Of a DNA stretch of 64,000 nt, positions 570-61,819 are shown in pieces. The stretch covers positions 744,001 through 808,000 of the forward strand of contig NZ_SJPP01000003.1 in the NCBI RefSeq assembly GCF_007860075.1, in the 5' to 3' direction. Position 1 is the first letter of the stretch, and every line of letters starts with the position of its first letter. Under the pieces are notes generated by a model, which searched no databases, was not told the DNA's origin, and saw nothing but the letters and a program-made list of their open reading frames with translations. A program made the translations under genes and the position numbers. This stretch comes from Symmachiella macrocystis. GTDB lineage: Bacteria > Planctomycetota > Planctomycetia > Planctomycetales > Planctomycetaceae.

Positions 570-2924
570 ATGTTGCGCTACCGTAGTCTCCCGTTTATCG
601 CCAGCCTGATTTGTCTGTTCGCCTCAACCAGCGCAGATGCCCAAGTGATTGTGATTAATCCCGAACGCGATCGGATTGCCCGCCCCAGTCCGCGGCCGAT
701 TCGGCAGGACTACGAGATCAAATCGGTCGACATCCAAGCCGACATCCGCGATCAGGCGGCTGAGGTTCAGGTCTCGCAAGTTTTCGCCAACAAAAGCAGC
801 CGCACCTTACAAGCGACTCTCTTTTTTCCGCTGCCCGATGAGGCAACGATCAGTGGATTGACGTTGATTGTCGACGGGAAAGAATTACCCGGGCGATTGT
901 TACCCAAGGACGAAGCGCGGCGGATCTATGAAGATATCGTCCGCCGCAGCCAAGACCCCGCTTTGCTGGAATATATGGGGCGCGGATTGTTTCGCACGAG
1001 CGTGTTTCCCGTCCCGCCTAATGCCCAGCGCAAAGTCGAGATCCGCTATTCGCAATTGCTCAAAAAAAGCGATGGGCTGGTCGACTTCTCATTGCCCTTG
1101 GGCAACTCCAAGCACTCGACCAAACCAATCAAACAATTGAATCTCACAGTCCGCGTGCATGCGAACGAGGGCATCAAAACCATCTACAGCCCTTCGCACG
1201 ATGTGAATATCGAGCGTCCCGAATCCAAGCGGGCGATTTGCAAAACCACGCTGTCCGACGTCGCCGCAGCGGACGATTTTCGTCTATTGTTCGGCACCGA
1301 GAGCGGGCCGGTCGGTATGAACGTGCTCAGTTATCGCCCCGACAAATCTCAGGACGGTTACTTTTTGCTATTGGCTGCGCCGGAAATCGCCGCCGCCGAG
1401 GCCCAAGCGGTCCCCAAGACGGTGGTGTTCGTGGTGGATCGATCCGGCAGCATGAGCGGACAAAAATTTGAACAGGTTCGCAAGGCTTTGCGATTCGTCC
1501 TGGATCGACTCGGCCCCGAGGACCTGTTCAATATTGTCGCCTACGATTCCAAAGTCGATGCCTTCCGACCGGAATTGCAGCGGGCGGACGAAGCGACGAT
1601 TGCGCAAGCCCGTGGTTTTGTCGATGGGCTTTATGCCGGCGGCAGTACAAATATTGACGGGGCACTGCAAAAATCGCTGGAGATGCTCAGCGATGCTGAC
1701 CGCCCAAACTATGTCTTGTTTTTGACCGATGGACTGCCGACGGTCGGCGAGCAAAACGATGTGAAAATCGCTGCACGAGCCCAAGCGGCCAACACCGTTC
1801 GCGCTCGGCTGTTCAATTTCGGCGTCGGATTCGACGTCAATAGCCGCCTGTTGGATCGACTGTCACGTGAACAGCGCGGACAATCGATTTATGTGCGTCC
1901 CAACGAAGACATCGAAGCCCAGGTCGCCACGCTGTACAACCGCATCGCCTCGCCAGTGCTGACCGATCTGGCTATTGAATTTTTATTCGAAGCAAAACCC
2001 GATCCGACAGCAGCACCCCCCATCGCCCGGACCTACCCGCAGGAGTTGAACGATTTGTTTCGCGGCGAACAACTCATCTGGGTCGGACGCTATCGCAAAA
2101 GCGGCGCAACCAAGGTCAAACTGACGGGCAAAGTCGGTGCGGAGCCACGCAGTTTTGAATTCGATGCCTCACTGGTGGAACACTCGGGAGACGAAACGAA
2201 CGGCTTCGTCGAAAAGCTGTGGGCAGTGCGGCGGATCGGTGAAATACTGGACGACTTGGACCTCAATGGTCAGAACAAAGAACTGGTCGACGAACTGGTC
2301 GCCCTCTCCATCAAGCACGGCATATTGACCCCCTACACATCGTTTCTAGCAGATGAGGAAACCGACTTGATGCAGCATCGCCAGAATGCTCAGCGAGCAG
2401 AGGACAATATCGATTTGAAATTTCGCCGCAGAGTATCGGGAAGTGACGCCTTCTACGGTCGCCGCGGCAAGGCCGCGCTAAAAACAGCCAACCGGCTTCC
2501 TGAACTACAGCAGAGAGGTGGGATTGGCGGTGGCGGCGGGTTTGGTGGAGGCGGCGGGATTGGTGGCGGGATTGGTGGCGGGATTGGCGGCAATTTGCCG
2601 CGTTCTGCCGAGAGACGCGGAGCGGGACGAGCTTTGCCCACAGGTGACGCATCCGATAGCGAGTCGGCAGAGGCAGCGGAAACCGTCCGCAACATCGGTC
2701 AAAAGACGTTTTTCCAACGCGACGATCTGTGGCGGGATTCCACAGTCACGGCCGAACAGGAAAAACAAGCGAAGCGGATCGTGCAGTTTAGTAACGAATA
2801 CTTCGATTTGGCAGCGACGCACGGCAAGGAACTGGGCAAATACCTGGCATTTCGAGAGCCGGTGTTGATCAACTTGCGAGGGAAAACCTACCGCATCGAC
2901 CCGCCGCCTGATGATGCGAAATAA
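570..2924 (+). CDS. Exported VIT and vWA domain protein with Gly-rich linker
   Basis: A 784-residue protein resembling inter-alpha-trypsin-inhibitor heavy chains. Residues 1-24 form a signal peptide ending ADAQ. A VIT domain spans roughly 40-170 (includes LFFPLPDEATISG and YEDIVRRSQDPALLEY). A von Willebrand A domain spans about 280-450 with an intact MIDAS start, D290-x-S292-x-S294 (DRSGSMS), and the LTDG strand near 390, so metal-dependent ligand binding is expected. A Gly-rich linker of repeated GGGIGG/GGGFGG units lies near 650-676, followed by a charged C-terminal tail. The start has a good GGAGG six bases upstream. It is convergent with the Rrf2 gene and has no obvious operon partner. 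The function is probably extracytoplasmic protein binding; the ligand is unknown. Confidence 0.88.
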   Translation: MLRYRSLPFIASLICLFASTSADAQVIVINPERDRIARPSPRPIRQDYEIKSVDIQADIRDQAAEVQVSQVFANKSSRTLQATLFFPLPDEATISGLTLIVDGKELPGRLLPKDEARRIYEDIVRRSQDPALLEYMGRGLFRTSVFPVPPNAQRKVEIRYSQLLKKSDGLVDFSLPLGNSKHSTKPIKQLNLTVRVHANEGIKTIYSPSHDVNIERPESKRAICKTTLSDVAAADDFRLLFGTESGPVGMNVLSYRPDKSQDGYFLLLAAPEIAAAEAQAVPKTVVFVVDRSGSMSGQKFEQVRKALRFVLDRLGPEDLFNIVAYDSKVDAFRPELQRADEATIAQARGFVDGLYAGGSTNIDGALQKSLEMLSDADRPNYVLFLTDGLPTVGEQNDVKIAARAQAANTVRARLFNFGVGFDVNSRLLDRLSREQRGQSIYVRPNEDIEAQVATLYNRIASPVLTDLAIEFLFEAKPDPTAAPPIARTYPQELNDLFRGEQLIWVGRYRKSGATKVKLTGKVGAEPRSFEFDASLVEHSGDETNGFVEKLWAVRRIGEILDDLDLNGQNKELVDELVALSIKHGILTPYTSFLADEETDLMQHRQNAQRAEDNIDLKFRRRVSGSDAFYGRRGKAALKTANRLPELQQRGGIGGGGGFGGGGGIGGGIGGGIGGNLPRSAERRGAGRALPTGDASDSESAEAAETVRNIGQKTFFQRDDLWRDSTVTAEQEKQAKRIVQFSNEYFDLAATHGKELGKYLAFREPVLINLRGKTYRIDPPPDDAK

Positions 2925-2935
2925 CAATCAAACAA

Positions 2936-3385
2936 TCAGCTGAGGTTAACGGTGTCGTTATTCGACGTATCGCACAGCGGTTTGCTGCCATTCGAGTCGG
3001 CTAAGACCTCAGCCAAGGTGGTGTTGGCAAAAGCCTGCTCGACCGTCTTAATGGCATTGTCCATGCGGCGATGCAGCGGGCAAAGCCGCGTCCCGTGACC
3101 CGGAAGATCCAGCGGGCAGGTTTCGATGCGACGAATGGGGTCGACGGCATTGACGACCTCCAACAGCGCCAACTCATCAGGTTTTTTTGCCAAGGTGAAT
3201 CCACCGTTGGGGCCACGTTGCGAATGGACCAGTCCGGCACGATTCAAACTAGCCATCACCTTCGATAAGTAGGCGGCGGGAACCTTAGTCACCTTGGCTA
3301 TTTGCACATTGGTTTGTGCAGATGGCGATTCATTCGCCAAGCAGACAATCGCCCGCAGTGCGTATTCAACCGTTTGCGATAACAT
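2936..3385 (-). CDS. Rrf2 family transcriptional regulator
   Basis: A 149-residue protein with the Rrf2 N-terminal winged helix (MLSQTVEYALRAIVCLA, then the recognition region VPAAYLSKVMASLNRAGLV and the wing GPNGGFTLAK). Family members such as IscR, NsrR and RirA bind an Fe-S cluster through three cysteines in the middle loop. Here I see C90 and C102, with no cysteine between them at the usual third position; C138 lies in the non-conserved tail. A cluster may therefore use a non-Cys ligand, or be absent. The ATG at 3385 is preceded by an AAGGGATG-like ribosome site. It stops 11 bases from the convergent VIT-vWA gene, and no Fe-S or nitrosative-stress gene is adjacent, so the target is unknown. 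Confidence 0.88.
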   Translation of the reverse strand: MLSQTVEYALRAIVCLANESPSAQTNVQIAKVTKVPAAYLSKVMASLNRAGLVHSQRGPNGGFTLAKKPDELALLEVVNAVDPIRRIETCPLDLPGHGTRLCPLHRRMDNAIKTVEQAFANTTLAEVLADSNGSKPLCDTSNNDTVNLS

Positions 3386-3886
3386 CCCGTTTCATCCCTT
3401 TCAAGCGCCGGCCCAGCATGCCTAGTGCAAAATGCATCTCCGCCGATGAGGCATGGCCTCTTAGCATCTAACTGCGTTCAGGAGTTTGGGGGAAGTTGCC
3501 GCGAACTTGTTGTCCGTATCTCCCACTCAAGGAGATCCCCCCGCCTTTACACAATTGATCTTAGACAGTCCCCGGTAACATGAAAAGCCCGAGTGACGGG
3601 CTCGTTCGCAATGCAACACTTCCCCCTTGCTCCACAGCACCGTCCACCACCATTCTAAGCCAGCCAGGCTGACGGGCTTTCTGTATTGCAAACGATCTGC
3701 GTTTTTTGAATGCTGTGGAATACATTGAGCCACGGATTAACACGGATAAGAAAAGAAAAAAATAAAACAAGGCTATGCACCTCTCGTTCCTATCCAGAGC
3801 TGGCGACCGAGAAAATCCTCTTTTTATTTCTTATCTGTGTTTCATCTGTGGCTTAAGAACCTGCACATCATGATTCTCAAGCCGGA
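3386..3886. other. Intergenic region with inverted repeat, no gene seen
   Basis: About 500 bases between the start of the Rrf2 gene and the end of the sugar-binding lipoprotein gene. It should contain the Rrf2 promoter in its first part. Short open frames on the minus strand around 3527-3770 have no ribosome site or recognisable sequence. The right half contains an imperfect inverted repeat (3726-3755 and 3826-3856). Confidence 0.5.
3726..3856. repeat. Imperfect inverted repeat pair (GCCACGGATTAACACGGATAAG type)
   Basis: The segment 3726-3755 contains GCCACGGATTAACACGGATA. The segment 3826-3856 is its imperfect reverse complement, containing TTATCTGTGT and ATCTGTGGCTTA. The two arms are about 70 bases apart. 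The internal spacer is A/T-rich at both edges. Such paired short repeats in intergenic DNA are like REP/BIME elements. No transposase is nearby. I recall similar text in other planctomycete intergenic regions, but could not check. Confidence 0.6.
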
Positions 3887-4930
3887 CTAAAAGCCGAAAT
3901 CGTATTCGTCGATATTCTCTGCTGTGAAGCGGATCGGGTCTGAAAGGATGATGGTTTGATCGTCGCGGGGACTGAAGCGGAGGTTGCCGTAGCCGGTGAT
4001 CTCGTCCCCTTCTTTGAGTTCCTGTCCTTCAACAGCTGCCTTGGCGATGCGGACGGTCAGTTCGCCCAAGGCGTTGGGATCCCAGAGGAAGAAACTTTCC
4101 AGGACTCCCTCTTTCATATAGGGCCGCATTTTTCCGGGCGTCGAATTGCCCGTCAGAGCAACTTGGCCGATCTTGCCGGCGCGTTTGATGGCTTCAGCTG
4201 CTCCAGGAACGGAATTGGAATCAAAGGCGATGATCCCTTTCAGGTTCGGGTGCGCGTTCAGCAGCGTACCGACTTTTTGCGCCGCCTCGGTTTCGTTCTC
4301 TTTGGTGATGACGGTTTCGACCAATTTCAGCTTGGGATATTTTTCCGCCGCTCGCGCTTCGGCATAGCTACGCCAAGTATTTAAATTGGCAGCGTCGAGA
4401 CTGGCGATCGCAATCGCCCACTCCCCTTCCTCGTTCATCTGCCGAGCAATCTCATCCATCAGCGATTCGCCAAGCACTTTGTCATCGACTTGGTTGACCA
4501 TGTATTGCCGACCGCTATCAGGCGCGTCGCTGTCCCAGGTGAGGACCGTAATTCCCGCAGCCCGCGCTTTATCGACAAACGGCTTGATCCGTTTGGGTTG
4601 GTTGGGCGCAATGCAAATCGCATCGACGCCGTTGCGAATCCACGTATCGATGTAATTATTCTGCTCTTCGCCGCTGGGTGTGGCGGGTCCGTCATAGATC
4701 AGCTTGACCCCCAACTCATCGGCCGCCTTTTGCGCCCCTTTTTCGCAAGCCACAAAATAATCAATGCCCACTAACTTGGGCATCATGGCGATGACGATTT
4801 CGTCGGAGCTGTCTTTCGAGGCTGCGCCATCTTCACCCGACTGCCCACAACCGATTGAGAACAGGGCCCCCACAAAAAGCAGGGTAATAACATGGCAAAA
4901 ACGCAGCGGCAATCGTGGAATGTTTTGCAT
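3887..4930 (-). CDS. Sugar ABC transporter substrate-binding lipoprotein
   Basis: A 347-residue periplasmic-binding-protein-like lipoprotein. The signal peptide ends in a lipobox LFSIGCGQ with C28 as the lipidated cysteine, so it should be membrane-anchored outside the cytoplasm. The mature part matches the Peripla_BP_4 fold used for ribose, rhamnose and autoinducer-2: the first strand IVIAMMPKLVG, GVDAICIAPNQPKRI, ITVLTWDSDAP, KGIIAFDSNSVPGAAEAIKRAGK and VALTGNSTPGKM. RhaS/LsrB-like binding proteins are the nearest family I can name; the sugar is not predictable. No permease or ATPase is adjacent. An RbsA-type ATPase lies about 50 kb away at 54604 on the other strand and could be a partner, but this is a guess. 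Confidence 0.85.
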   Translation of the reverse strand: MQNIPRLPLRFCHVITLLFVGALFSIGCGQSGEDGAASKDSSDEIVIAMMPKLVGIDYFVACEKGAQKAADELGVKLIYDGPATPSGEEQNNYIDTWIRNGVDAICIAPNQPKRIKPFVDKARAAGITVLTWDSDAPDSGRQYMVNQVDDKVLGESLMDEIARQMNEEGEWAIAIASLDAANLNTWRSYAEARAAEKYPKLKLVETVITKENETEAAQKVGTLLNAHPNLKGIIAFDSNSVPGAAEAIKRAGKIGQVALTGNSTPGKMRPYMKEGVLESFFLWDPNALGELTVRIAKAAVEGQELKEGDEITGYGNLRFSPRDDQTIILSDPIRFTAENIDEYDFGF

Positions 4931-5273
4931 GAGAAGTCGATGAATCCTGAAAGGATGTTTTCAAAAGAAGTTTTCGTGATTGTCTATCAGCACAGCGGGA
5001 AGGCGAAGCTCCTGCTGAGCCGCTTTTTCCACTTGGCGTGCAGCCACCCAATGGTTTTGGTAAGCGTCTTGGTCCATCGCGGCTCGGCGGGAGCCTCGCC
5101 CTCCCATGATGAAGACACGATCTGTGAGACGGGAAAGAGAACGACGTAACAAACGCCTGCTGCGATGTGCAACCAGCTATACTATTACGGATATCGCGTC
5201 GATCTTTCCACCGTGGCGCGCAGGACGATCGCGGAATCTCGCAAATGAAACGGGGCGTAGTTGGGCGGCTCGA
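4931..5273. other. Intergenic region with inverted REP-like repeats
   Basis: About 340 bases upstream of the sugar-binding lipoprotein gene and downstream of the PPC gene, both on the minus strand. Open frames here on both strands are created by the repeat pair at 4997-5105 and carry no recognisable domain. The promoter of the lipoprotein gene should lie close to 4931. Confidence 0.5.
4997..5105. repeat. Inverted pair of a 25-base REP-like element
   Basis: Positions 5081-5105 read GGCTCGGCGGGAGCCTCGCC followed by CTCCC. Positions 4997-5021 are the reverse complement of this with four differences in 25 bases, all transitions. The two arms are 59 bases apart. This arrangement matches BIME-type paired repeats. 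Each arm is also partly self-complementary (GGCTC...GAGCC). I recall this GC-rich motif as widespread in planctomycete intergenic DNA; that part is memory, the pair itself is seen here. Confidence 0.75.
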
Positions 5274-6923
5274 CTACTTCGTCTCGGCCGGTTTCAACAC
5301 CGTCAGCCAAGGTGCTGCGGTCGTTGCCGTAAAACCGGTGATGGTCGCTTCGGCGGTGCGGCTGAGCGGTGTTTCCCCGGCCACCGTCCCCACGATACGA
5401 ATCGGCCCGCTGACCGGTCCGGCGTCCGAAGTCAGTTGCAGCTTGACCGACTTGGCCGTATCCCCTTTTTTCTTCGAGACAACAGTCGTCGCTGTCACGC
5501 CGGCGGGAAGATCGACGGCAGTGATGCTGATTTCACCCCCGTAGCCATGCAATCGCCCCACAGTCACAGGAATTTCTAATGCTGTTCCCGGCGTGAGCGT
5601 AAAGGCATCGGCTGCGAGCTTCAGATTAAAGTCGGCCTGCGGAAGGATGCCAGTGAGACGATAGACGTAGCGAAATCCGCCATCACGGTTCAGGTCGCGA
5701 ATCATCAAGCGATAATCCCCGTCGGCGGGAATCGTATGAGCCAAGACCGCATCGCGCTGGCTGCGGTTAATGTCATCGACCTGTGCCAATCGTTTGCCGG
5801 CAGCGTCAGTCAGGCGAATCAACGGGTCCAACGGAAAACCCAATGCCCACGATTCGGCACGGAATTCGACCCTTTGACCTTTCTTGGCGGTGAACTGATA
5901 CCAATCCTCGTCCCGTTCTTCGGAGATGGAACCGGAAATCGTCATGGGCAGCTTGATGGGTTGCGGATGCTGCGCATCGTTCACGGCTGACTCGACCGTC
6001 ACAGCATGCGGAACGGTCTTGATCAACGCGGTATTTCCTAATTCCGGATGAAACAGCGGAGCAACATCCTGTAAGCTACTGGACGAAGGCACGGTGTAAA
6101 AACGGACCGGTTGCGGAATGTTCCAACCCCGTAATTCGATCTCAGTGGGATGATTTTGCGAGGCGGCCAACGGAAACGCATGATCCACAAACGCCGCCGT
6201 CGTGAGCGTCAACCGATAAACATAACTGGCCGAAGCGGAAAAACTGATCGACTGGTTCGGTTTCGAAGGAAATGCGAACGAACGCACCAAGTACGTACCC
6301 GCCTCTTGCGCGGTGAACACCACCTGCGGGTCGAGGTTATATGTATCGTGGTTGAATGCCAACCGAAAACCATTGGGCGAGGTCACTTCTAAAATCGCAT
6401 CCATCGGTGAACCAAGCACTTCATTGGCCGCCATCGAAGCGACCAGCGTCTGCCCAGCGGCAAGCTTCACGGCGAAGGTATCGACATCGCTACTCCCGTT
6501 GATCCGTCCATTGACGATAACAGTCGATGTTTCCAGCAATTGCGGTTCGCGGTAGTCGTTGTTCGGTTCTTTCTCATTCATTTCAGGCAGCGTGCCGACG
6601 ACAAACGGCCGCAACGGCGATGCGCCTTCGTCGTTGTGCAAGCGGACCCAATAGACGCCCGGAACGGCGTCTGAATCGACGGTGATTTTGAGTTTGCCTT
6701 TGTCCTTCTCGGGCTCAACCGTAATTCCCGCGCGGTCGGTTAACACTTTCGGCGGCCAAGACGCGTTTTTACCGGCGGCTTCGACCGAGACCGTTGTTCC
6801 CCGCTGCGCACCGGCGGGGTGCAAATAGCTCAACTCCGGCTTGGCTGCGAACAAATCCGCAGCGGTCAAGCCGGTCAAAAACAGGACCAGGATGAACGAT
6901 TGTCGCCAAAAACAAAGTCGCAT
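5274..6923 (-). CDS. Exported PPC-domain protein of planctomycete type
   Basis: A 549-residue exported protein if started at ATG 6923, which gives a clean signal peptide (MRLCFWRQSFILVLFLTG... ending LFA). The frame is open to another ATG at 6953, adding ten residues; neither start has a strong ribosome site. The protein has an Ig-like N-terminal part (LSYLHPAGAQRGTTVSVEA), a first PPC (bacterial pre-peptidase C-terminal) domain around 115-235 with EPNNDYREPQ and SDVDTFAVKLAAGQTL, and a second at about 325-430 with EERDEDWYQFTAKKGQRVEF. PPC domains are beta-sandwiches, often in secreted enzymes; no catalytic domain is present. It lies 151 bases downstream of the DUF1549/DUF1553 gene on the same strand, a pairing common in planctomycetes, so the two may act together at the cell envelope. 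Confidence 0.82.
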   Translation of the reverse strand: MRLCFWRQSFILVLFLTGLTAADLFAAKPELSYLHPAGAQRGTTVSVEAAGKNASWPPKVLTDRAGITVEPEKDKGKLKITVDSDAVPGVYWVRLHNDEGASPLRPFVVGTLPEMNEKEPNNDYREPQLLETSTVIVNGRINGSSDVDTFAVKLAAGQTLVASMAANEVLGSPMDAILEVTSPNGFRLAFNHDTYNLDPQVVFTAQEAGTYLVRSFAFPSKPNQSISFSASASYVYRLTLTTAAFVDHAFPLAASQNHPTEIELRGWNIPQPVRFYTVPSSSSLQDVAPLFHPELGNTALIKTVPHAVTVESAVNDAQHPQPIKLPMTISGSISEERDEDWYQFTAKKGQRVEFRAESWALGFPLDPLIRLTDAAGKRLAQVDDINRSQRDAVLAHTIPADGDYRLMIRDLNRDGGFRYVYRLTGILPQADFNLKLAADAFTLTPGTALEIPVTVGRLHGYGGEISITAVDLPAGVTATTVVSKKKGDTAKSVKLQLTSDAGPVSGPIRIVGTVAGETPLSRTAEATITGFTATTAAPWLTVLKPAETK

Positions 6924-7074
6924 ACCGCTGTCTTTCAATAGAGCAATATTCATTTCGTGGCCGCAGAGTTAGGCGGCGTTCCAGCCAGCGTCCCATTCAT
7001 AAGAACGCCCAAACGCCGTCACACGAAAGTGCCATCGGCACTAGAACCAGTCGTCGCCGTGACCAACGCAGTCA

Positions 7075-19870: not shown

Positions 19871-21271
19871 TCAATTCCCGCCGCCGCTGTTGAGGAAACT
19901 AAACGTGAACACGTCAGTGACTTGCGAAAATGTGGGCGTCAGTCGCATGCGGACATAGCGGCGGTCTGCGGAAATGACGGCGGAGGCTGACAGCGAGGAG
20001 CCTTCGGGAATGACCGAAATCACCGGCTGATAGCCGACGCCCGCGCGGCGCGGGGCGCCGGGTTGTGTTAAGCGGCGCGTCCTTAGAAAGTCGTCGCGGG
20101 CTTGCCGACTTTGCGCCGACGATTGCACTATGCGGCTGCGATTGCGGACCGGAACCGGTGGATGCGCCATGTGAGGCACCGCAGACACGGTGACCGGTTG
20201 TGTACGACGTCCCTGCTTGAGTTGCACGCGCACCACCGTCTCCTCATCGGTCAGAGCAATCACCTGTGTCTTGGTTGTTTCCGCGTCGGTCCCCTTATAT
20301 TGCGTCACTGTGAGCAAAGCGCGTTTGGCAACCACCCGGCCCCAAACATGTTGGATTTTGATGCGATAGGTTCCGGTGAGCGCCTGTGGATAAATAATCT
20401 GTTCGTAGGTCTCCTTTTGGCGCGGTCCCATGCCGTCGTGCAGGAGGACACCGCCTGCCGGAGACTGGGGGTGTTGCAACGAACAGAGCGTGCCATTGGG
20501 TTCCTCGATAATGAGATCCAAGTCCGCTTCCCCCTGCCAACGGAGAATGATCTCCAGATCGTGCGTTTTAGCAGCGGCCATTTTTTCAGCAACGGCTTTC
20601 GCCTCGGCGGTTTTACCCGCTCGATTGAGCTGTTGTTCCAAATCGAGCAGCGCGTTTTCTGCTTGGCGATGCAGCGGCTGGTGATCGGTGGTCCAAACGT
20701 GCGACAAAATACCCAACGCGGCCCATTGCACGGCGTCCGCATCATTAAGTTTTTTGGCCAATCGCAACCCGAGCGCGTACGGTTCAGGGCGAGCGGGATT
20801 CAGTGACGAGGCTTGCCGGTAGAGGTGCAACGCGCGGGGCAGTTGTTGAAACCGCACAAGATACGCGGCCGAAAGCATCATGCTGGATTGGTCGACGGTG
20901 CGAAAATCGGACCGTGATAGCATGGCGCGTTCGATGTCGTCGGTCGAACGTTCCGCCAATTGCATCTCCAAGGGAAGCACTTCATACATCCACGTGCGGC
21001 CCTGTCCGTGCCGAATGGCGGCCTCTAAAAAAGCGACTGCGCCGGCATGGTCCTTCAACTCGAAAATCGCTTTGAAGGGTGCGTGAAACTCGATGGGTTG
21101 CGGTGTATGCGTGGCAAAAAACTTGTCCCAAACCTCAATCGCATTGCCCTGCACGGGAATCGCGGGAAAGGGAATTGGCTTAAAATCTGCGGGATGTGGA
21201 GCCGAAGTTGGGTCGGTTAATGCCGAAGCGGAGCCGGGATTGGGATCCCGACTCCGCTTCTTTTTTGACAA
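19871..21271 (-). CDS. C-terminal part of the vWA/secretin-like protein, separate frame without a proper start
   Basis: A frame encoding 466 residues counted from TTG 21271. The frame is open further back to 21367, through the end of the upstream gene. Residues 45-240 look like alpha-helical TPR-like repeats (EVWDKFFATHTPQPIEF..., ALHLYRQASSLNPARPEPYAL). Residues 245-355 resemble a DUF2135-like beta domain (LRWQGEADLDLIIEEPNGTLC ... GTYRIKIQHVWG). The last 55 residues (GYQPVISVIPEGSSLSASA... DVFTFSFLNSGGG) look like a secretin-region C-terminus. It has no signal peptide, no ATG or GTG start before residue 38 and no ribosome site at the TTG. It is in the -1 frame of the gene at 21346-23868, and the two frames meet at a run of nine A. 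I therefore read it as the second half of a frameshifted or slippage-expressed protein of about 1,332 residues, not an independent gene. Confidence 0.75.
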   Translation of the reverse strand: MSKKKRSRDPNPGSASALTDPTSAPHPADFKPIPFPAIPVQGNAIEVWDKFFATHTPQPIEFHAPFKAIFELKDHAGAVAFLEAAIRHGQGRTWMYEVLPLEMQLAERSTDDIERAMLSRSDFRTVDQSSMMLSAAYLVRFQQLPRALHLYRQASSLNPARPEPYALGLRLAKKLNDADAVQWAALGILSHVWTTDHQPLHRQAENALLDLEQQLNRAGKTAEAKAVAEKMAAAKTHDLEIILRWQGEADLDLIIEEPNGTLCSLQHPQSPAGGVLLHDGMGPRQKETYEQIIYPQALTGTYRIKIQHVWGRVVAKRALLTVTQYKGTDAETTKTQVIALTDEETVVRVQLKQGRRTQPVTVSAVPHMAHPPVPVRNRSRIVQSSAQSRQARDDFLRTRRLTQPGAPRRAGVGYQPVISVIPEGSSLSASAVISADRRYVRMRLTPTFSQVTDVFTFSFLNSGGGN

Positions 21272-21345
21272 GCTAGGTTGTTTGGCGAAACTCTCCGTAG
21301 AGGCTTTGGAGCCCTTAACGGCGTCTTTGCCTTTCTGACGGCCCT

Positions 21346-23868
21346 TTACGGTTTTTTTTTCTGGGCATCAACAGCTTTGTTGTCAAATTCGGCAGGTACG
21401 TCTTCCGCGGGGACGTTGAATTGTCCACCACCGAATCCGCCTCCACCGCCGCCGAAGCCGCCGCCACCGCCGCCGAATCCACCGCCACCGCCGCCGAATC
21501 CACCACCGCCACCGCCGAAGCCGCCACCACCGCCTTGCGGGGTTTGAATCGGAATCACCAAGTCGCCAACAGGATAGACGCGGATCTGGAGGATTTCCTC
21601 AGCGACCCGTTTTGTGGTGATCTTCATGACTTCGTCTTGGACGACATAGGTCAACTGCAACGGTTCCAGCATCAACTTCAACGCGTTGCGAAGTGAGATC
21701 CCGGCGAGAGTCAGGTTGATGGGCGAATCGGGAGAAATACCTTCATCGTTGAGGGCTACGTCATCGACCACGATCTGAATATTGTGCAAGTCCTTCAAGT
21801 ACAGGACCACATCCGTCAACGGTTGGTCTTGGAAGTCGACTTCAGTATTCTCATCCAAGGCTTCGTAGATACGATCTTCGATCGGGCTGAATTTCTTCAA
21901 GTCGACCGAAGCCCATTTTTTACGGTTAATGGTCAAAGCTTCCCAAACTTCCGCCGGCGGATAAACGATCGGCGGTTCATCCGGGAACGGAACGTGCGAC
22001 AGCTCCACCTGATACAGCGTCTCTAAGAAGCGGTCGTATCGCAAGTACTGCAATCGCAGTGCCTTGTCGAGTTGTCCGGCAGCTTCGGCAACGAACACAG
22101 CTTGCGCGGTCACGCCGGTGTATGGTTGCAATTCCCAGGCAGCCCGTGCGACAGCTTCGGCCTTTTCAAAAGCGTCGCGGTCGCCGCGATACCCTTCGTA
22201 GATCAACACGCTAACTTGGTCGATCAACTGCTTCATCGTGTCTTCGTCTTCAGCAAGCTGATCCAGCAGCCGCCGTTGTGCTTCGATTTGCGATTGACGC
22301 TGTAAGTCTTGACGCTGCGCCAATTCCCGCTGGTCTTTCAACGTGGAAAGCTGTTGAATAGCTGTCCGTAACCGAGCCCGCAATGATTCGCGTGCATTGA
22401 TGTCCACATCGGTGGCACCGCTGACCGATCGCAATGTGCCTTTGAGCAACGAAATCGCCGCACCTGGATCAGTCCTTCGGGCATCGTTGGCATGTTCCAA
22501 GTCAGCATTGACCTGGCTTTTGAGCCGCTCTGTGCGGACCTCACGCAATTTCTCTTGTTGGGCCAGCAGGTCGACTTCACCTTGTTTCTTCCCGTCATCG
22601 ACTGGAATTGCTGGAGCCGCGTCGTTTTGTTGTGCCACCTTCAACACGCGATGCCCTTTTTGAGCATTCGTTACTGTGGAAAAGATGATTTGCGCTTTCA
22701 CATTCGCGGGGTCTAAACGTTTGATTTCACCAGCGAAGAGATCTGCTTGTTTCATTTGTCCGGTCGCGACAGCATGCTCACCGAGGTCGACCAAATTGGC
22801 GATGTGGTTTTCATGAGCTTCGCGGCTGACATTGAGCAAGTTGGTGCCTGCCAACGGGACCGACAGGCCATCATCACGATTTGCCTGCGACCACAACGCT
22901 GCCAGAAACGTATTGCCCGGTTGCTGCTCGATGTTGCCGACGGTCCAACGCATTTGTTGATCGCCGATCGTGACCATGATTTCCGGTGTTTGAGCGATGT
23001 CTCCTTTGCCGATCAAAATCGTTTCGCGATCGCTACGCAACGGCGGTAAAACGGACGGATAGACGCGAGCACCGACTGGAGTCATGCTGTAGTTCGTGGG
23101 ATAGTAAACCGGAGCATTCGCGGCGGCGACCAGTGATTCGCCGACCTGTTGTGGGTAGAGATTCGAATCGACTTTTGTGGCATCTTCAATCACCACGACA
23201 CCGCCTGTGTGCTGGGCGATGACACCCAACAAACGCAGGTCGGTCTGCGGTCCGATCGCGAAGCTATGCATGGCGATACGTTGTTCACGCATGTCACCAA
23301 GCATGCTTCGCATGACTTCGGTGCCGATCAAGTCGGCAATACTGAGTCCGTCACCGATATAAGTGATCGAGGCGGGACGGTCGCCGCTGACGGCTTCCAT
23401 CGCGGTCCGCACGGCCAATCTCATGTCGGTGGCCCCCAGCGGAGTCCGCATGGACAAGCGATTCACAGCGCTGTCCATCTTCGCTCCCGTAGCAGGAATG
23501 AATTCTTTGGTGTAGCGTTTGGCTTTCACATCCACCGCAAACAGGCAGACGCGATCGTCAGCCGACATCGCTTGCAGCATGGCGGACAGAACCGCCAATC
23601 CGCGATCGCGATAGGCGCCGTTTTGACTCGCCGAGGTATCAAACAGAATGACGTGGTCGCGCGGCTGAGCCGGCGTCTGCTGAGCATCGACCTGCAATCC
23701 GAGAGCGAAATACGATTCGCCATCCGGAGCCGTGTAGGCCGTCATACTGGCCTGGTGGTCGGCCCGCAGATTGTCTGCTGCTGTTGCTTGCGAAAGGGAA
23801 TAACTGCAAACGCAGACCAATGCGAATGCCGGCGCGAACCGAACGCTACTTCTCAACGTGGAGATCAT
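21346..23868 (-). CDS. Exported vWA protein with secretin/TonB short N-terminal (STN-like) domain
   Basis: An 840-residue protein with a signal peptide (residues 1-31, ending ATA-AD). A vWA domain spans about 68-235; its MIDAS start is D77-T-S79-A-S81 (VILFDTSAS). A long helical middle (about 395-560) includes a stretch rich in Gln/Arg. Residues about 685-775 match an STN-type domain as in secretins and TonB receptors (PLTDVVLYLKDLHNIQIVVDD ... LRNALKLMLEPLQLTYVVQDE). A Gly-rich linker of GGGGFGG repeats lies near 785-815. The frame ends KKKP-stop right at a run of nine A. Its start has CGGAG seven bases before ATG. It acts outside the cytoplasm, perhaps as an envelope assembly factor; a ligand is unknown. 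Confidence 0.85.
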   Translation of the reverse strand: MISTLRSSVRFAPAFALVCVCSYSLSQATAADNLRADHQASMTAYTAPDGESYFALGLQVDAQQTPAQPRDHVILFDTSASQNGAYRDRGLAVLSAMLQAMSADDRVCLFAVDVKAKRYTKEFIPATGAKMDSAVNRLSMRTPLGATDMRLAVRTAMEAVSGDRPASITYIGDGLSIADLIGTEVMRSMLGDMREQRIAMHSFAIGPQTDLRLLGVIAQHTGGVVVIEDATKVDSNLYPQQVGESLVAAANAPVYYPTNYSMTPVGARVYPSVLPPLRSDRETILIGKGDIAQTPEIMVTIGDQQMRWTVGNIEQQPGNTFLAALWSQANRDDGLSVPLAGTNLLNVSREAHENHIANLVDLGEHAVATGQMKQADLFAGEIKRLDPANVKAQIIFSTVTNAQKGHRVLKVAQQNDAAPAIPVDDGKKQGEVDLLAQQEKLREVRTERLKSQVNADLEHANDARRTDPGAAISLLKGTLRSVSGATDVDINARESLRARLRTAIQQLSTLKDQRELAQRQDLQRQSQIEAQRRLLDQLAEDEDTMKQLIDQVSVLIYEGYRGDRDAFEKAEAVARAAWELQPYTGVTAQAVFVAEAAGQLDKALRLQYLRYDRFLETLYQVELSHVPFPDEPPIVYPPAEVWEALTINRKKWASVDLKKFSPIEDRIYEALDENTEVDFQDQPLTDVVLYLKDLHNIQIVVDDVALNDEGISPDSPINLTLAGISLRNALKLMLEPLQLTYVVQDEVMKITTKRVAEEILQIRVYPVGDLVIPIQTPQGGGGGFGGGGGGFGGGGGGFGGGGGGFGGGGGGFGGGQFNVPAEDVPAEFDNKAVDAQKKKP
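21349..21370 (-). other. A9 slippery run joining two frames (candidate -1 frameshift or transcriptional slippage site)
   Basis: On the minus strand the upstream gene ends CAG-AAA-AAA-AAA-CCG-TAA. The run of nine A (complement of 21352-21360) contains the A-AAA-AAA heptamer in the correct phase. A shift of -1 here, or one extra A in the transcript, bypasses the stop and continues as T-V-K-G-R-Q-K into the frame of 19871-21271 with no stop for 493 codons. No ATG or GTG occurs in that frame between the A run and the TTG at 21271. A one-base error or mutation in the homopolymer would look the same. Confidence 0.6.
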
Positions 23869-59088: not shown

Positions 59089-60153
59089 CTACTCGAAACT
59101 AACGATTTCCCCACCGGCTATCGTTGAAAATTGGCGATATTGCGTGAGGTCGATGCTATCGTTGACAAATTGAACCGAACCATCGGCCAACAGGAAAAAA
59201 CCGCCTCCGGTATGCGAACTTCGAAAGTTACTCATCCAGTGCGGTCCACCATTGAGGCTCGACCGACAATCCAACAAGCCAGCCACAATGATCTCCGATG
59301 TGGTCACGGGATTCTTGTTCAGCCTCTCCACCGTACTGCAGAACACGCTCGCGGTATGCAGTCCAACCGTGGTTGTGTAACCATCATTTGAAGGTTCCGG
59401 GCTGACCCAAAAAACATCGGCTTTGCGATTCACCCCCGGATTGAGCGGCGATTGCGCAGTGGTTGGGTCCGTGCAGCCAACTCCGACACACAGGGGAAAC
59501 GTTTCCCCGCCGGCACCTTCCCCCATCATGAATGTGTTTGAGGTACCGTCCGTAATTTTTGCGATCCGTGTGGACTGGTCTAGGTTGAACATGCCTCGTT
59601 CAGAGCTAGGAATATTGCCATGGGTCGCCGGACCATAAACCGGATGCCCTCCCTCATAACAAATGGCGTCGTTGATTCCTTTGGATAACATGTAGTGCGT
59701 CACGCCACCTGTCCCTAGCCCCGGCAGCGCGAACTCAAGAACCGGATCAAATGCCGTATTCTCGGTTGGTACAGACGGGCAGATCAAACTGTTGATTGGT
59801 GTCGCCTGCACACCTGCCGGTTGATCGGTCCATTGCAATGAGTAATCGTAGAGATTCTCAAGGTTTCCCTGGTCGAAATACGGAAGCGAGGCAGTCAAGG
59901 CTCCACTAAACACGTTGCCATCCAGATCAGAAATGCCCCCGATAGGAAACATCAAAAACACATCGTGGTAGTTGTGCATCGCCAATCCGAGTTGCTTCAG
60001 ATTGTTGCGGCACTGTGTCCGGCGGGCCGCTTCGCGCGCCTGCTGGACTGCCGGCAGCAACAGCGCAATGAGAATCGCAATAATGGCAATGACCACCAAC
60101 AATTCGATCAACGTAAACGCGTGTCGCTTTTGTGCGGAAAAACTTAGTCTCAT
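59089..60153 (-). CDS. DUF1559 protein with type IV pilin-like N-terminus
   Basis: A 354-residue protein from ATG 60153, preceded by GAAAGG. The N-terminal prepilin signal is [22 protein letters not shown], with Ala instead of the usual Gly before the cleavage point and Glu at +5. [22 protein letters not shown] is the DUF1559 core. Near the C-terminus comes [17 protein letters not shown], the H...DG motif characteristic of planctomycete 'Xaa-DG' pseudopilins. These are exported, presumably assembled or anchored at the envelope; no activity is known. The frame extends another 99 codons upstream but without similarity. It lies 450 bases downstream of a second DUF1559 gene with its terminator. 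Confidence 0.9.
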
Positions 60154-60602
60154 GATTGAACCTTTCGGTACGAGAAAAAGAGACAGAGAAGGACACGGCT
60201 TCAACAGCCATTTAGGCTGCAGGCGTGAATGCCAGTTCCTGAAAGCTCTAACGTTTGCGGACAATCTTTTTGGCGGTCTGTTAGCAACTAGAACAGAGCC
60301 TATCCGGTTTGTCAATTTTTTTTCGGAACATGGTCGGTACTTTCTTTCCGCCACAGATGCTGGGCGAAATGTACGCCGAGAACTATCCGCGACACTTGCC
60401 TCCAAGTAGTGCCTCATATCGTTGGCAGAATTTGAAGCTGTTCGATTCAACGGACGGCCAAAGCAATGAGTATCGATGGCTGGGCGATGGCGTAATGGCG
60501 AGCAGTGAGGCGCTAGGAATGGAATCGATGATTCAATGAAAAAAGGGTGCGGAGATGGATAATCTCCGCACCCTTCGTATCTACAATGTCGTCAACTGTG
60601 GT
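60154..60602. other. Intergenic region between the two DUF1559 genes
   Basis: About 450 bases with a perfect terminator at 60539-60573 for the upstream DUF1559 gene and then the promoter/leader of the downstream one. Frames on both strands are open but without family resemblance, including a long in-frame N-terminal extension of the DUF1559 gene. Confidence 0.5.
60539..60573 (-). terminator. Rho-independent terminator after the second DUF1559 gene
   Basis: GGGTGCGGAGAT (60545-60556) pairs perfectly over 12 bases with ATCTCCGCACCC (60562-60573), with a five-base loop. The six A at 60539-60544 become a T-run on the minus strand. Confidence 0.93.
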
Positions 60603-61712
60603 CTAGAACTGACCGTTAACTTCACCACCCTGACGGGTAATCAGTGCGGCTGTTACAAGCGGGCTGAGGCTTGCATTGAGGAACTGCACAGAACCATCGG
60701 CCAGCAAAGCAAACGTGCCACCGGTGTGCCACGAGTACGCTCCCGCACCCAGACGGTTGGAGCAGTTGATGATACAGGGACCACCACCGTCACCCGAAGC
60801 GATGTCGGTACCGTCTGCATTGGAACCTTTAATCCAGTTCTCATGCCACGGATCACCCCAACCACCACCACCGAACAATGATTGACCGATAGCTTCGGGA
60901 TCACCACTCGAAACGGGCACAAGGGTCCGACCGCGGTAGAACAGGTTTTTGCTGGCCTGTTCGACAAGCATAATGGTGTTGGTTGTTCCATCGGTGATGT
61001 TCCGGATTTTCAAACCATCAGCACCAGCTGTCGGTTGTCCAAATACGCCATAGATCGCAGGAGTATCGACGAGGATGACATTCTGTTCCATGATGGAATC
61101 GCGATCGGCCGAATAGCGTACACCGCCATTGGCAGGGGTCACGGAGAAATCATAGAACCCCGAGCGATAACCCGAGACGATTTCGTAGTCAGAACGACCA
61201 CTTCGCATGGTCCAGTCACTGGCAATCGGAACACCAAGACCGACGTCGGTCCCGGCGGGAACACTCGCTTCGACAATCGTGTTGCCATCGGGTGTTGTCG
61301 GGCAAATGAATCCCGGAATCACCGTCGCGTATGCCGCAGCTTCAGCACCACCGGCGAGGACGTTGGCAAAAGGACTCAAGCCATTGTTGACCACTTTGTA
61401 GATATTGCCACGATCGATGTAGGGCAAGAGTGGTTGCTGCCAACTGTGGCTGGTCAAGGACTCGATCGCCGCACCCGTACCACCGGTCGTGATGACCAAT
61501 TCCGGGCATTCGAATTGACCATACACATCATGATAGTTGTGAAACGCCAAGCCAAGCTGTTTCATGTTATTGCGGCACTGCGTCCGACGAGCCGCTTCAC
61601 GCGCTTGCTGGACTGCCGGAAGCAGCAGCGCGATCAAGATCGCGATAATCGCGATAACGACGAGCAGCTCAATGAGCGTAAACCCGCGTTTGGACTTACG
61701 AGAACGAGACAT
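60603..61712 (-). CDS. DUF1559 protein with type IV pilin-like N-terminus (second copy)
   Basis: A 369-residue protein. The prepilin signal is [19 protein letters not shown] (Gly10, Phe11), followed by [25 protein letters not shown] and, at the C-terminus, [22 protein letters not shown] precedes ATG 61712, which fixes the start against an open frame to 61754. It follows the lipoprotein gene at 61820 by about 107 bases on the same strand; they are probably co-transcribed and end at the 60539-60573 terminator. Confidence 0.92.
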   Translation of the reverse strand: MSRSRKSKRGFTLIELLVVIAIIAILIALLLPAVQQAREAARRTQCRNNMKQLGLAFHNYHDVYGQFECPELVITTGGTGAAIESLTSHSWQQPLLPYIDRGNIYKVVNNGLSPFANVLAGGAEAAAYATVIPGFICPTTPDGNTIVEASVPAGTDVGLGVPIASDWTMRSGRSDYEIVSGYRSGFYDFSVTPANGGVRYSADRDSIMEQNVILVDTPAIYGVFGQPTAGADGLKIRNITDGTTNTIMLVEQASKNLFYRGRTLVPVSSGDPEAIGQSLFGGGGWGDPWHENWIKGSNADGTDIASGDGGGPCIINCSNRLGAGAYSWHTGGTFALLADGSVQFLNASLSPLVTAALITRQGGEVNGQF

Positions 61713-61819
61713 AATCAAACCTCCATCTAGGAAACAAGGAACGAGAACGAACACGATTTACCGGCAGGGACGCGCCGGTCAATAACTAAAATATTTAAGA
61801 ATAGTGAGACCGGACCGGC

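Follow-up and report, generated by a model that had tools for sequence, protein, structure and literature searches.

A programmed frame shift at a run of nine A residues (A9) nearly certainly joins two reading frames of an envelope gene in two planctomycete families. RNA polymerase, and not the ribosome, is the likely slipping agent because the length of the run is constant while its codon phase and the direction of the shift differ among loci. We consider it probable that slippage gives rise to two isoforms, with unslipped RNAs ending at a hairpin behind the run and slipped RNAs being carried through it by the ribosome.

A split gene in Symmachiella macrocystis

In the 64,000-nt stretch of S. 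macrocystis DNA analyzed here (the window), the gene and all its features lie on the minus strand. The upstream (0) frame (21346..23868) encodes a short isoform of 840 aa, which comprises an N-terminal hydrophobic segment, a vWA domain, a helical region, an STN-like domain, and a Gly-rich linker and ends with KKKP. As proposed in a previous, sequence-only reading of this DNA, the frame closes with CAG AAA AAA AAA CCG TAA and contains exactly nine A; the A9 run (21352..21360) is codon-aligned as AAA AAA AAA, and the TAA stop (21346..21348) follows one codon past it. The downstream (–1) frame (19871..21367) would extend the protein C-terminally into the long isoform, and its dN/dS relative to the nearest relative is 0.109. 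One extra A joins the frames into a product of 1,332 aa by simple arithmetic, in agreement with the length originally given. The –1 phase of the downstream frame and its openness through the run are likewise correct; however, its proposed beginning at 21271 is merely the first TTG, and the frame opens at 21367, the last preceding stop being a TGA located 7 nt ahead of the run. The reported lack of an ATG or GTG start holds for the first ~70 residues, but an in-frame GTG is present at 21154; no Shine-Dalgarno-like sequence is visible ahead of this GTG when the sequence is read by eye.

The run at 21352-21360 is the sole A or T run of at least nine nucleotides in the window. The 7.57 Mb genome contains 20 A9 runs and no longer ones, and reading the frames around each run identified 21352-21360 as the only place where one long frame ends and another takes over. 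In one 6.5 Mb relative, the only A9 run is that at this frame junction.

The vWA domain (residues 73-225; 23194..23652) matches Pfam VWA_3 with 56.4 bits at a cut-off of 27, and vWA proteins are among the top PDB fold matches; all 26 aligned upstream frames of relatives also match Pfam vWA (E 0.01). The STN-like region (~residues 675-752; 21613..21846) is supported by a structure model and by homology to the genome's own secretin paralogue. Pfam STN was detected in five of the same 26 frames and not in the window member. In the downstream frame, a TPR-like helical solenoid (20570..21142) is predicted by the structure model and by Foldseek TPR matches, with Pfam TPR_14 below its cut-off. The model also contains a beta domain (20219..20563) and a secretin-type beta-hairpin tail (19895..20038), the latter sharing 65% identity over 48 residues with the secretin paralogue (E 2e-16). 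This paralogue (L204, 1928-7069, minus strand) is a single frame with PF00263. Residues 434-780 and the C-terminal tail of the window protein are homologous to it, the helical and STN region being 27% identical (E 1e-31). The two proteins thus have the helical/STN region and the tail hairpin in common but differ in that the window protein possesses vWA, TPR, and beta domains and that neither of its frames matches the Pfam Secretin barrel. Of the domains named in the sequence-only reading, vWA, STN-like, TPR-like, and secretin-like parts are largely borne out, whereas a Pfam search of the beta domain, previously described as DUF2135-like, returned no family and hence no DUF2135.

Conservation of the A9 junction

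To follow the run in relatives, as the sequence-only reading had suggested, we surveyed 172 loci in 171 genomes from 67 genera of two families (f1 and f2). The run is A9 at 165 loci, A8 at four, and A10 at three; joining the frames requires a –1 shift at 166 loci, a +1 shift at five, and none at one. Two more second-family loci outside the 172, with the upstream frame cut off, also carry A9. At every counted locus the downstream frame remains open over the run (the run lying no more than 2 nt ahead of the first base of this frame), and a 0-frame stop occurs no more than nine codons past the run at 171 of 171 loci, as compared to 28% in the null.

Of the 156 f1 genomes containing a match, the survey covers all but ten. 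Left out of the count are L009 and L101, both cut by contig ends, and G099, which has A9, a rearranged upstream part, and a linker peptide in frame with the tail. The upstream frame was set by hand at L059, L072, L077, and L080 and by an open-frame fallback at ten further loci that were out of reach of tblastn hits. L059 (G077) and L072 (G184) had been candidates for a +1 shift, but both are –1: at L059 the frame had been taken ahead of an indel in the Gly-rich repeat, and L072 contains a stretch of N.

The sequence-only reading had offered slippage or a missing base as the origin of the split. Homopolymers are prone to errors, other families encode their homologues in a single frame, and one genome, G157, combines A10 with one continuous frame; all this would fit an assembly, here or in relatives, that lacks one base of a truly uninterrupted gene. 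However, 171 of 172 loci in 67 genera, from single-contig genomes as well as MAGs, repeat the out-of-frame arrangement along with the run, the early 0-frame stop is found everywhere, and the hairpin described below co-occurs with the run. This recurrence refutes a missing base, to which we assign a negligible probability, and supports slippage; judged by it, the A9 junction is not a sequencing error. G157 also lacks the strong hairpin and could be regarded as a natural double loss of shift and hairpin, but a homopolymer error or recent change is equally likely because nine A would give CGA CCG TCC TGA, the usual pattern of its genus.

Phase variation, in which replication slippage toggles cells between A9 (short form) and A10 (long form), might be expected of a homopolymer within an envelope gene, and G157 would represent the one in-frame A10 genome. 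Yet a contingency tract should differ among species, while here the tract is almost invariably A9 with one locus in frame, and nine A is short for a switch. We regard such toggling as very improbable.

Homologues beyond the two families are encoded in single frames of at least 1,199 residues in 66 of 72 cases among the matches listed (hand count). Single-frame homologues, as indicated in the sequence-only reading for related proteins of ~1,300 residues, do exist, yet in other families. Of the remaining six, contig ends truncate three and probably a fourth (its match starts from contig base 105), G029 shows a break in frame but no A run, and the parts of G334 (family f16) look by eye like two genes, the second with a signal-peptide-like start.

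G334 illustrates how the downstream part could be a gene of its own, made separately through re-initiation past the stop, and an ATG or GTG is indeed present somewhere between the run and the downstream domain at 90 of 147 loci. These codons, however, are located within 40 nt of the stop at just 19 of 147 loci, two of them with a Shine-Dalgarno-like site, and 28 of 147 loci have no ATG, GTG, or TTG at all from the run to the domain. Separate genes would neither call for a downstream frame open across the run at every counted locus nor give a reason for A9, and we hold this arrangement to be highly unlikely in f1 and f2.

Polymerase or ribosome at the run

Most known examples of programmed transcriptional slippage come from mobile elements, dnaX, and type III/VI secretion genes (PMC1088944 and PMC5009743, in part). 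In Thermus thermophilus dnaX, slippage on A9 generates two isoforms, with about half of the product being the short form (PMC1088944, in part). The present gene resembles dnaX in that nine A in a chromosomal gene would yield two isoforms, but it is a different gene, and slippage has the opposite outcome: the templated dnaX frame is full-length and slippage shortens the product, whereas the long form of the present protein would require it. Two frames are joined into a longer product by slippage in Shigella mxiE and spa13 (PMC1088944 and PMC5009743, in part) and, from a partial source, in Citrobacter tssM; these are other genes from other lineages.

The long form could instead arise by ribosomal –1 frameshifting on A_AAA_AAA, with the mRNA keeping nine A. 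Every A9 run contains this heptamer in phase, the four A8 loci, all AAAAAAAAG, still present A_AAA_AAG, and the –1 direction prevails at 166 of 172 loci. Windows 0-40 nt behind the run are mildly enriched in structure (mean z of ~–0.6 to –1.1 versus ~–0.1 farther off) that might act as a stimulator. Several observations argue against this reading. Length 9 is maintained whichever of the three codon phases the run is in (122, 34, and 16 loci); in the two phases where the heptamer needs just 8 or 7 A, nine A are nevertheless present in 50 of 50 loci. AAG would serve the ribosome equally well as the last codon, yet it occupies this position in just four of the 122 codon-aligned runs, as compared to 60% (4,495/7,484) of Lys codons elsewhere in these genes. 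At five loci of three genera the shift is +1 with A9 retained (at one of them, L020, no tblastn hit backed the choice of upstream frame), and at one of 172 loci no shift is required. Shine-Dalgarno-like sequences ahead of the run are not enriched (10/147 loci versus 9%). We also considered the strong hairpin as a frameshift stimulator and dropped it since it is too far from the run: it starts at a median of 63 nt behind it, and the usual distance of a stimulator is ~5–9 nt. Although ribosomal frameshifting seems unlikely on these grounds, the hairpin could still be a translation-dependent terminator if it did occur.

A terminator-like hairpin behind the run

Slippage by RNA polymerase, our preferred reading, is accompanied by a conserved terminator-like hairpin, a feature that is new relative to the sequence-only reading. 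In the window, an uninterrupted 16-pair stem-loop with one G-U pair (21225..21260) is situated within the downstream frame in a terminator-like position, 85 nt past the 0-frame stop. Strong hairpins are found behind the run, within the downstream frame, at 123 of 171 loci, as opposed to 0–7 of 154–171 in ten control windows, and are absent at 48 of 171 loci, in 14 of 67 genera. Their median start is 47 nt beyond the short-frame stop, and the loop measures 3–6 nt in 91 of 106 hairpins counted. Both sides changed in 982 pair cells that remain paired, versus 187 cells in which the pair is broken; these counts lean towards pairing because the hairpins had been chosen for pairing. Among 21 full-length outgroup loci, three linkers reach a hairpin score of 27, with longer stretches scanned; these loci are not a random sample, as they were partly chosen for long open frames in the search results, and the 72 matches above are less selected. 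An Rfam search of the hairpin returned no family (best hit isrK, 19.7 bits versus 50).

At least four of the 8 nt behind the stem are T in 86 of 123 strong hairpins (background 0.10), at least six are T in 31 (background 0.00), and A is enriched ahead of the stem family-wide. We infer that the hairpin is the terminator of the short transcript. In E. coli, the terminator tR2 attains full efficiency beyond ~27–30 nt from a stop codon, and a single inserted base that moves the stop adjacent lowers termination from ~90% to <10% (PMC4824070, in part); of the 123 strong hairpins, 116 are separated from the stop by 27 nt or more. Alternatively, slippage may take place as proposed while the hairpin is a 3'-end stabilizer, following Rho-dependent termination of untranslated RNA, or a pause site. 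The window's own hairpin, which has 2 T in 8 nt and is not listed by a terminator scan, and the 37 of 123 strong hairpins with fewer than four T would suit such a role, but the T enrichment right behind the stem and the A enrichment before it favor intrinsic termination, leaving the stabilizer or pause site a possible, if doubtful, alternative.

Our model combines sequence features, namely the conserved run, the out-of-frame arrangement, the early 0-frame stop, and the hairpin, often with T's, with steps that we infer: the polymerase is what slips, transcripts terminate at the hairpin, readthrough depends on the ribosome, and both isoforms are of use. RNA polymerase would slip on the A9 template so that a fraction of transcripts gains one A; in a few lineages, slipped transcripts would have one A fewer or two more. 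An unslipped transcript would be translated into the short protein up to the stop 0–9 codons past the run. With the ribosome halted before the hairpin, which occupies the position expected for a short-gene terminator, the hairpin would fold and set the 3' end of the short mRNA. On a slipped transcript, the trailing ribosome, now in the shifted frame, would unfold the hairpin, transcription would be completed, and the fused frames would yield a long protein with the added TPR solenoid, beta domain, and secretin-type beta hairpin. Both isoforms may be used, perhaps at a fixed ratio in a secretin-associated envelope complex.

In its fullest form, this model amounts to frame-gated attenuation, with the ribosome behind the polymerase reading out the slippage state of each transcript: unslipped ones would end at a terminator hidden within the coding sequence, and slipped ones would be carried past it. 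We judge the chances of this to be evenly balanced. If true, slippage, translation, and termination constitute one cassette of ~100–150 nt that is conserved in two planctomycete families, and the reading frame gating transcription termination would be a possible new control principle. The ribosome position also decides whether the terminator folds in the trp attenuator. The same applies to the pyrBI attenuator (PMC4824070, in part). In contrast to both, the decision here would depend on the reading frame of the transcript, and the hairpin is located inside a protein-coding frame. No hairpin or terminator switch is described for dnaX in the available part of PMC1088944, or for mxiE, spa13, and tssM in the available parts of their sources. 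Among the matches listed in our literature search, no paper addressed slippage gating a downstream terminator.

In the stem-loop-mediated transcriptional slippage of Penno et al. 2015, a stem-loop ahead of the run reportedly drives slippage. Both systems link slippage to a terminator-like stem-loop; however, the present hairpin lies behind the run and is untranscribed when the polymerase slips. To our knowledge, few slippage genes would match the breadth of conservation of this chromosomal envelope gene, whose exact A9 junction has been retained in 67 genera of two families.

Frame-gated attenuation would require coupling of transcription and translation, which is debated in planctomycetes. 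Since ribosome-dependent readthrough needs a ribosome that follows the polymerase, the locus could serve as a natural reporter of whether planctomycetes couple the two processes. Frameshift-gene predictions in two planctomycete genomes were counted at 504 (PMC3711429, in part); the terms vWA, von Willebrand, and secretin do not occur in the main text of that paper, and the gene may be in its database. In annotations, genes of this kind are likely to appear truncated or split in two.

A conserved A9 junction

The 840-aa upstream frame (21346-23868, minus strand) ends CAG AAA AAA AAA CCG TAA, and the downstream frame in the -1 phase (21367 to 19871, minus strand) is open throughout, nine A's included. 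One added A fuses the two frames into a 1,332-residue product. On these points the sequence agrees with the sequence-only reading, which had described an 840-residue gene ending in an A9 run and CCG TAA, a next frame in the -1 phase that is uninterrupted across the run, and a joined product of 1,332 residues. Across the 7.57 Mb, 6-contig genome there are 20 A9 runs and no longer A run; inspection of the frames around each showed that two long frames meet only at the run in the window. Against the nearest relative, dN/dS is 0.051 for the upstream frame (the portion within the locus) and 0.109 for the downstream frame; both are under purifying selection.

A homologue of the downstream frame (E 1e-25 or better) is present in 156 of 170 genomes and 55 of 58 genera of the window's own family (f1), and in 43 of 45 genomes of a second family (f2), presumably Isosphaeraceae. 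Named contigs show that the relatives include Gimesia, Schlesneria, Thalassoglobus neptunius, and Planctomicrobium. All 30 f2 loci examined carry A9; two lack a readable upstream frame, leaving 28 f2 loci, which together with 144 loci from 143 f1 genomes make up the 172 analyzed. Ten f1 genomes, G099, and two loci interrupted by contig ends are outside these counts. Conservation of the run, proposed earlier as a check, is borne out: A9 occurs at 165 of the 172 loci, A8 at 4, and A10 at 3. The shift needed is -1 in 166 loci, +1 in 5, and none in 1; genome G157 is an exception, with A10 and a single frame. The upstream-frame stop lies at most 9 codons from the run in 171/171 broken loci (median 3), compared with a median of 22 codons and 28% within 9 in a null of the same frame relation sampled within the downstream domain. 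In one 6.5 Mb f1 genome the run of this gene is the sole A9 genome-wide. The gene is duplicated in another genome (L172 and L173, both G143), each copy having A8 followed by G.

The slipping agent

Slippage at A9 is of an already known kind, and either polymerase slippage or -1 ribosomal frameshifting could act at the run. A -1 ribosomal slip requires an in-phase A_AAA_AAA, which takes 9 A's in codon phase 0 (122 loci), 8 in phase 1 (34 loci), and 7 in phase 2 (16 loci). Frameshifting would fit the A8 loci, every one of which reads A8G, and the mild RNA structure immediately behind the run; however, all 50 phase 1 and 2 loci have nine A's, where 8 or 7 suffice. AAG as the last phase 0 codon would preserve a good ribosomal heptamer, yet it is found in only 4/122 loci, as compared to 60% of Lys codons elsewhere in these genes. 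The five +1 loci, from three genera, retain A9; polymerase slippage can serve both shift directions, but a -1 ribosomal site cannot. Shine-Dalgarno-like stimulators before the run are not enriched (10/147 vs 9%). Thus, the nine A's in all phases, the rarity of AAG, the +1 cases, and the lack of Shine-Dalgarno-like enrichment favor the polymerase over the ribosome as the likely slipping agent. In a large share of bacterial genomes, selection against slippage-prone runs starts to show at a length of nine (PMC1088944).

A terminator-like hairpin inside the downstream frame

In a folding-energy scan with 50-nt windows (one locus per genus, n = 56), mean z reaches -2.0 to -2.4 where the window starts 45–60 nt past the run, against ~ -0.1 farther off. 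This peak corresponds to a long stem-loop with a median of 15 pairs and a loop of mostly 3–6 nt. The hairpin is strong in 123/171 loci and 53/67 genera, versus 0–7 of 154–171 in ten control windows from the same loci scored identically. Stem sequences vary between species and pairing is mostly kept, by a count biased towards pairing. The 8 nt after the stem contain at least four T's in 86/123 strong hairpins (10% of 615 background positions) and at least six in 31/123 (0% of 615), and A is enriched ahead of the stem. The distance from the 0-frame stop to the hairpin is 47 nt (median) and at least 27 nt in 116/123.

Within the window such hairpins occur at 3/40 gene ends, this gene among them, and in 0/40 gene middles. 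The gene's own hairpin (21225-21260, minus strand) has 16 pairs, and the surrounding 147 nt fold with z -4.2; however, just 2 of the 8 nt after the stem are T, a poor tract, and the hairpin is absent from the list returned by a terminator scan of the window. Strong ordinary hairpins with clear T tracts follow the minus-strand genes 59089-60450 and 60603-61754, 75 and 26 nt after the stop, and provide a usable terminator yardstick for this organism.

Together, short frame, stop, and hairpin resemble a complete gene that has its own terminator and is nested in a longer gene read in a different frame. Beyond these sequence facts we infer every step of a mechanism: without polymerase slippage, the ribosome would be released at the stop, the hairpin would fold, and transcription would end; after slippage, the ribosome would keep following the polymerase in the -1 frame and pass the hairpin. 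The same stop-distance dependence was measured for an E. coli terminator, where termination is full when the stop is more than about 27–30 nt away and falls from ~90% to under 10% when a one-base insertion shifts the stop next to the terminator (Li et al., PMC4824070). In a search of mainly open-access main texts, we found no description of the gene family, its conservation breadth or, above all, the embedded terminator-like hairpin.

Proposed isoforms, relatives, and exceptional copies

In the upstream part, vWA is followed by a helical stretch, then an STN-like domain, then a Gly-rich linker; in a structure model searched with Foldseek, the downstream part forms a TPR-like solenoid, a beta domain, and a two-strand hairpin. 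The domains first read from sequence are thereby largely borne out. A secretin paralogue in the same genome, which carries PF00263, is homologous to upstream residues 434–780 and to the C-terminal tail, and the secretin-barrel hairpin is confined to the long form. Our guess is a secretin-linked envelope complex in which the slip fixes the ratio of the two forms. The paralogue (1928-7069 of locus L204, minus strand; 1,713 aa) has the hairpin module in common with the window protein, then a long Gly-rich insertion, then the PF00263 match.

Judged from translations, f2 proteins (L184-L187, L206-L235) apparently lack the vWA part and retain run and hairpin, which ties the device to the STN-linker-TPR junction, not to vWA. 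Their upstream frame is shorter, 545–673 aa in the four translated, ending in QKKSN or QKKMN. In several genera, a peptide of the type (F/L)(D/N)N.S(I/V)K.LKKK recurs directly ahead of the run, where it could serve the short isoform as a C-terminal motif.

Separate trees of the upstream and downstream parts agree on (f1, (f2, (f3, f4))) versus other families, with support of 0.979–0.997 for all four, 0.56 and 0.90 for f2+f3+f4, and 0.85 and 0.92 for f3+f4. The f3 and f4 loci (three each) are single frames, as first noted for related proteins, and have no A runs of at least 7; given their placement, the arrangement was either gained once and lost once or gained twice.

In L190 (G334, f16; ~4200-4400 of the reverse complement) the halves are apparently separate genes, the second with a signal-peptide-like start of its own, which suggests that each half is able to work as its own secreted protein. 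L183 (G099; 4066-5983 of the reverse complement) has A9, with the run at 4464, a short signal-peptide-like leader in place of the vWA/STN part, and the linker peptide in frame with the tail; it is either a rearranged copy or a misassembly. L026 (G029, f6; ~230-420 of the reverse complement) has a frame break between the parts and no A run; the break may be real, otherwise programmed, or an assembly error.
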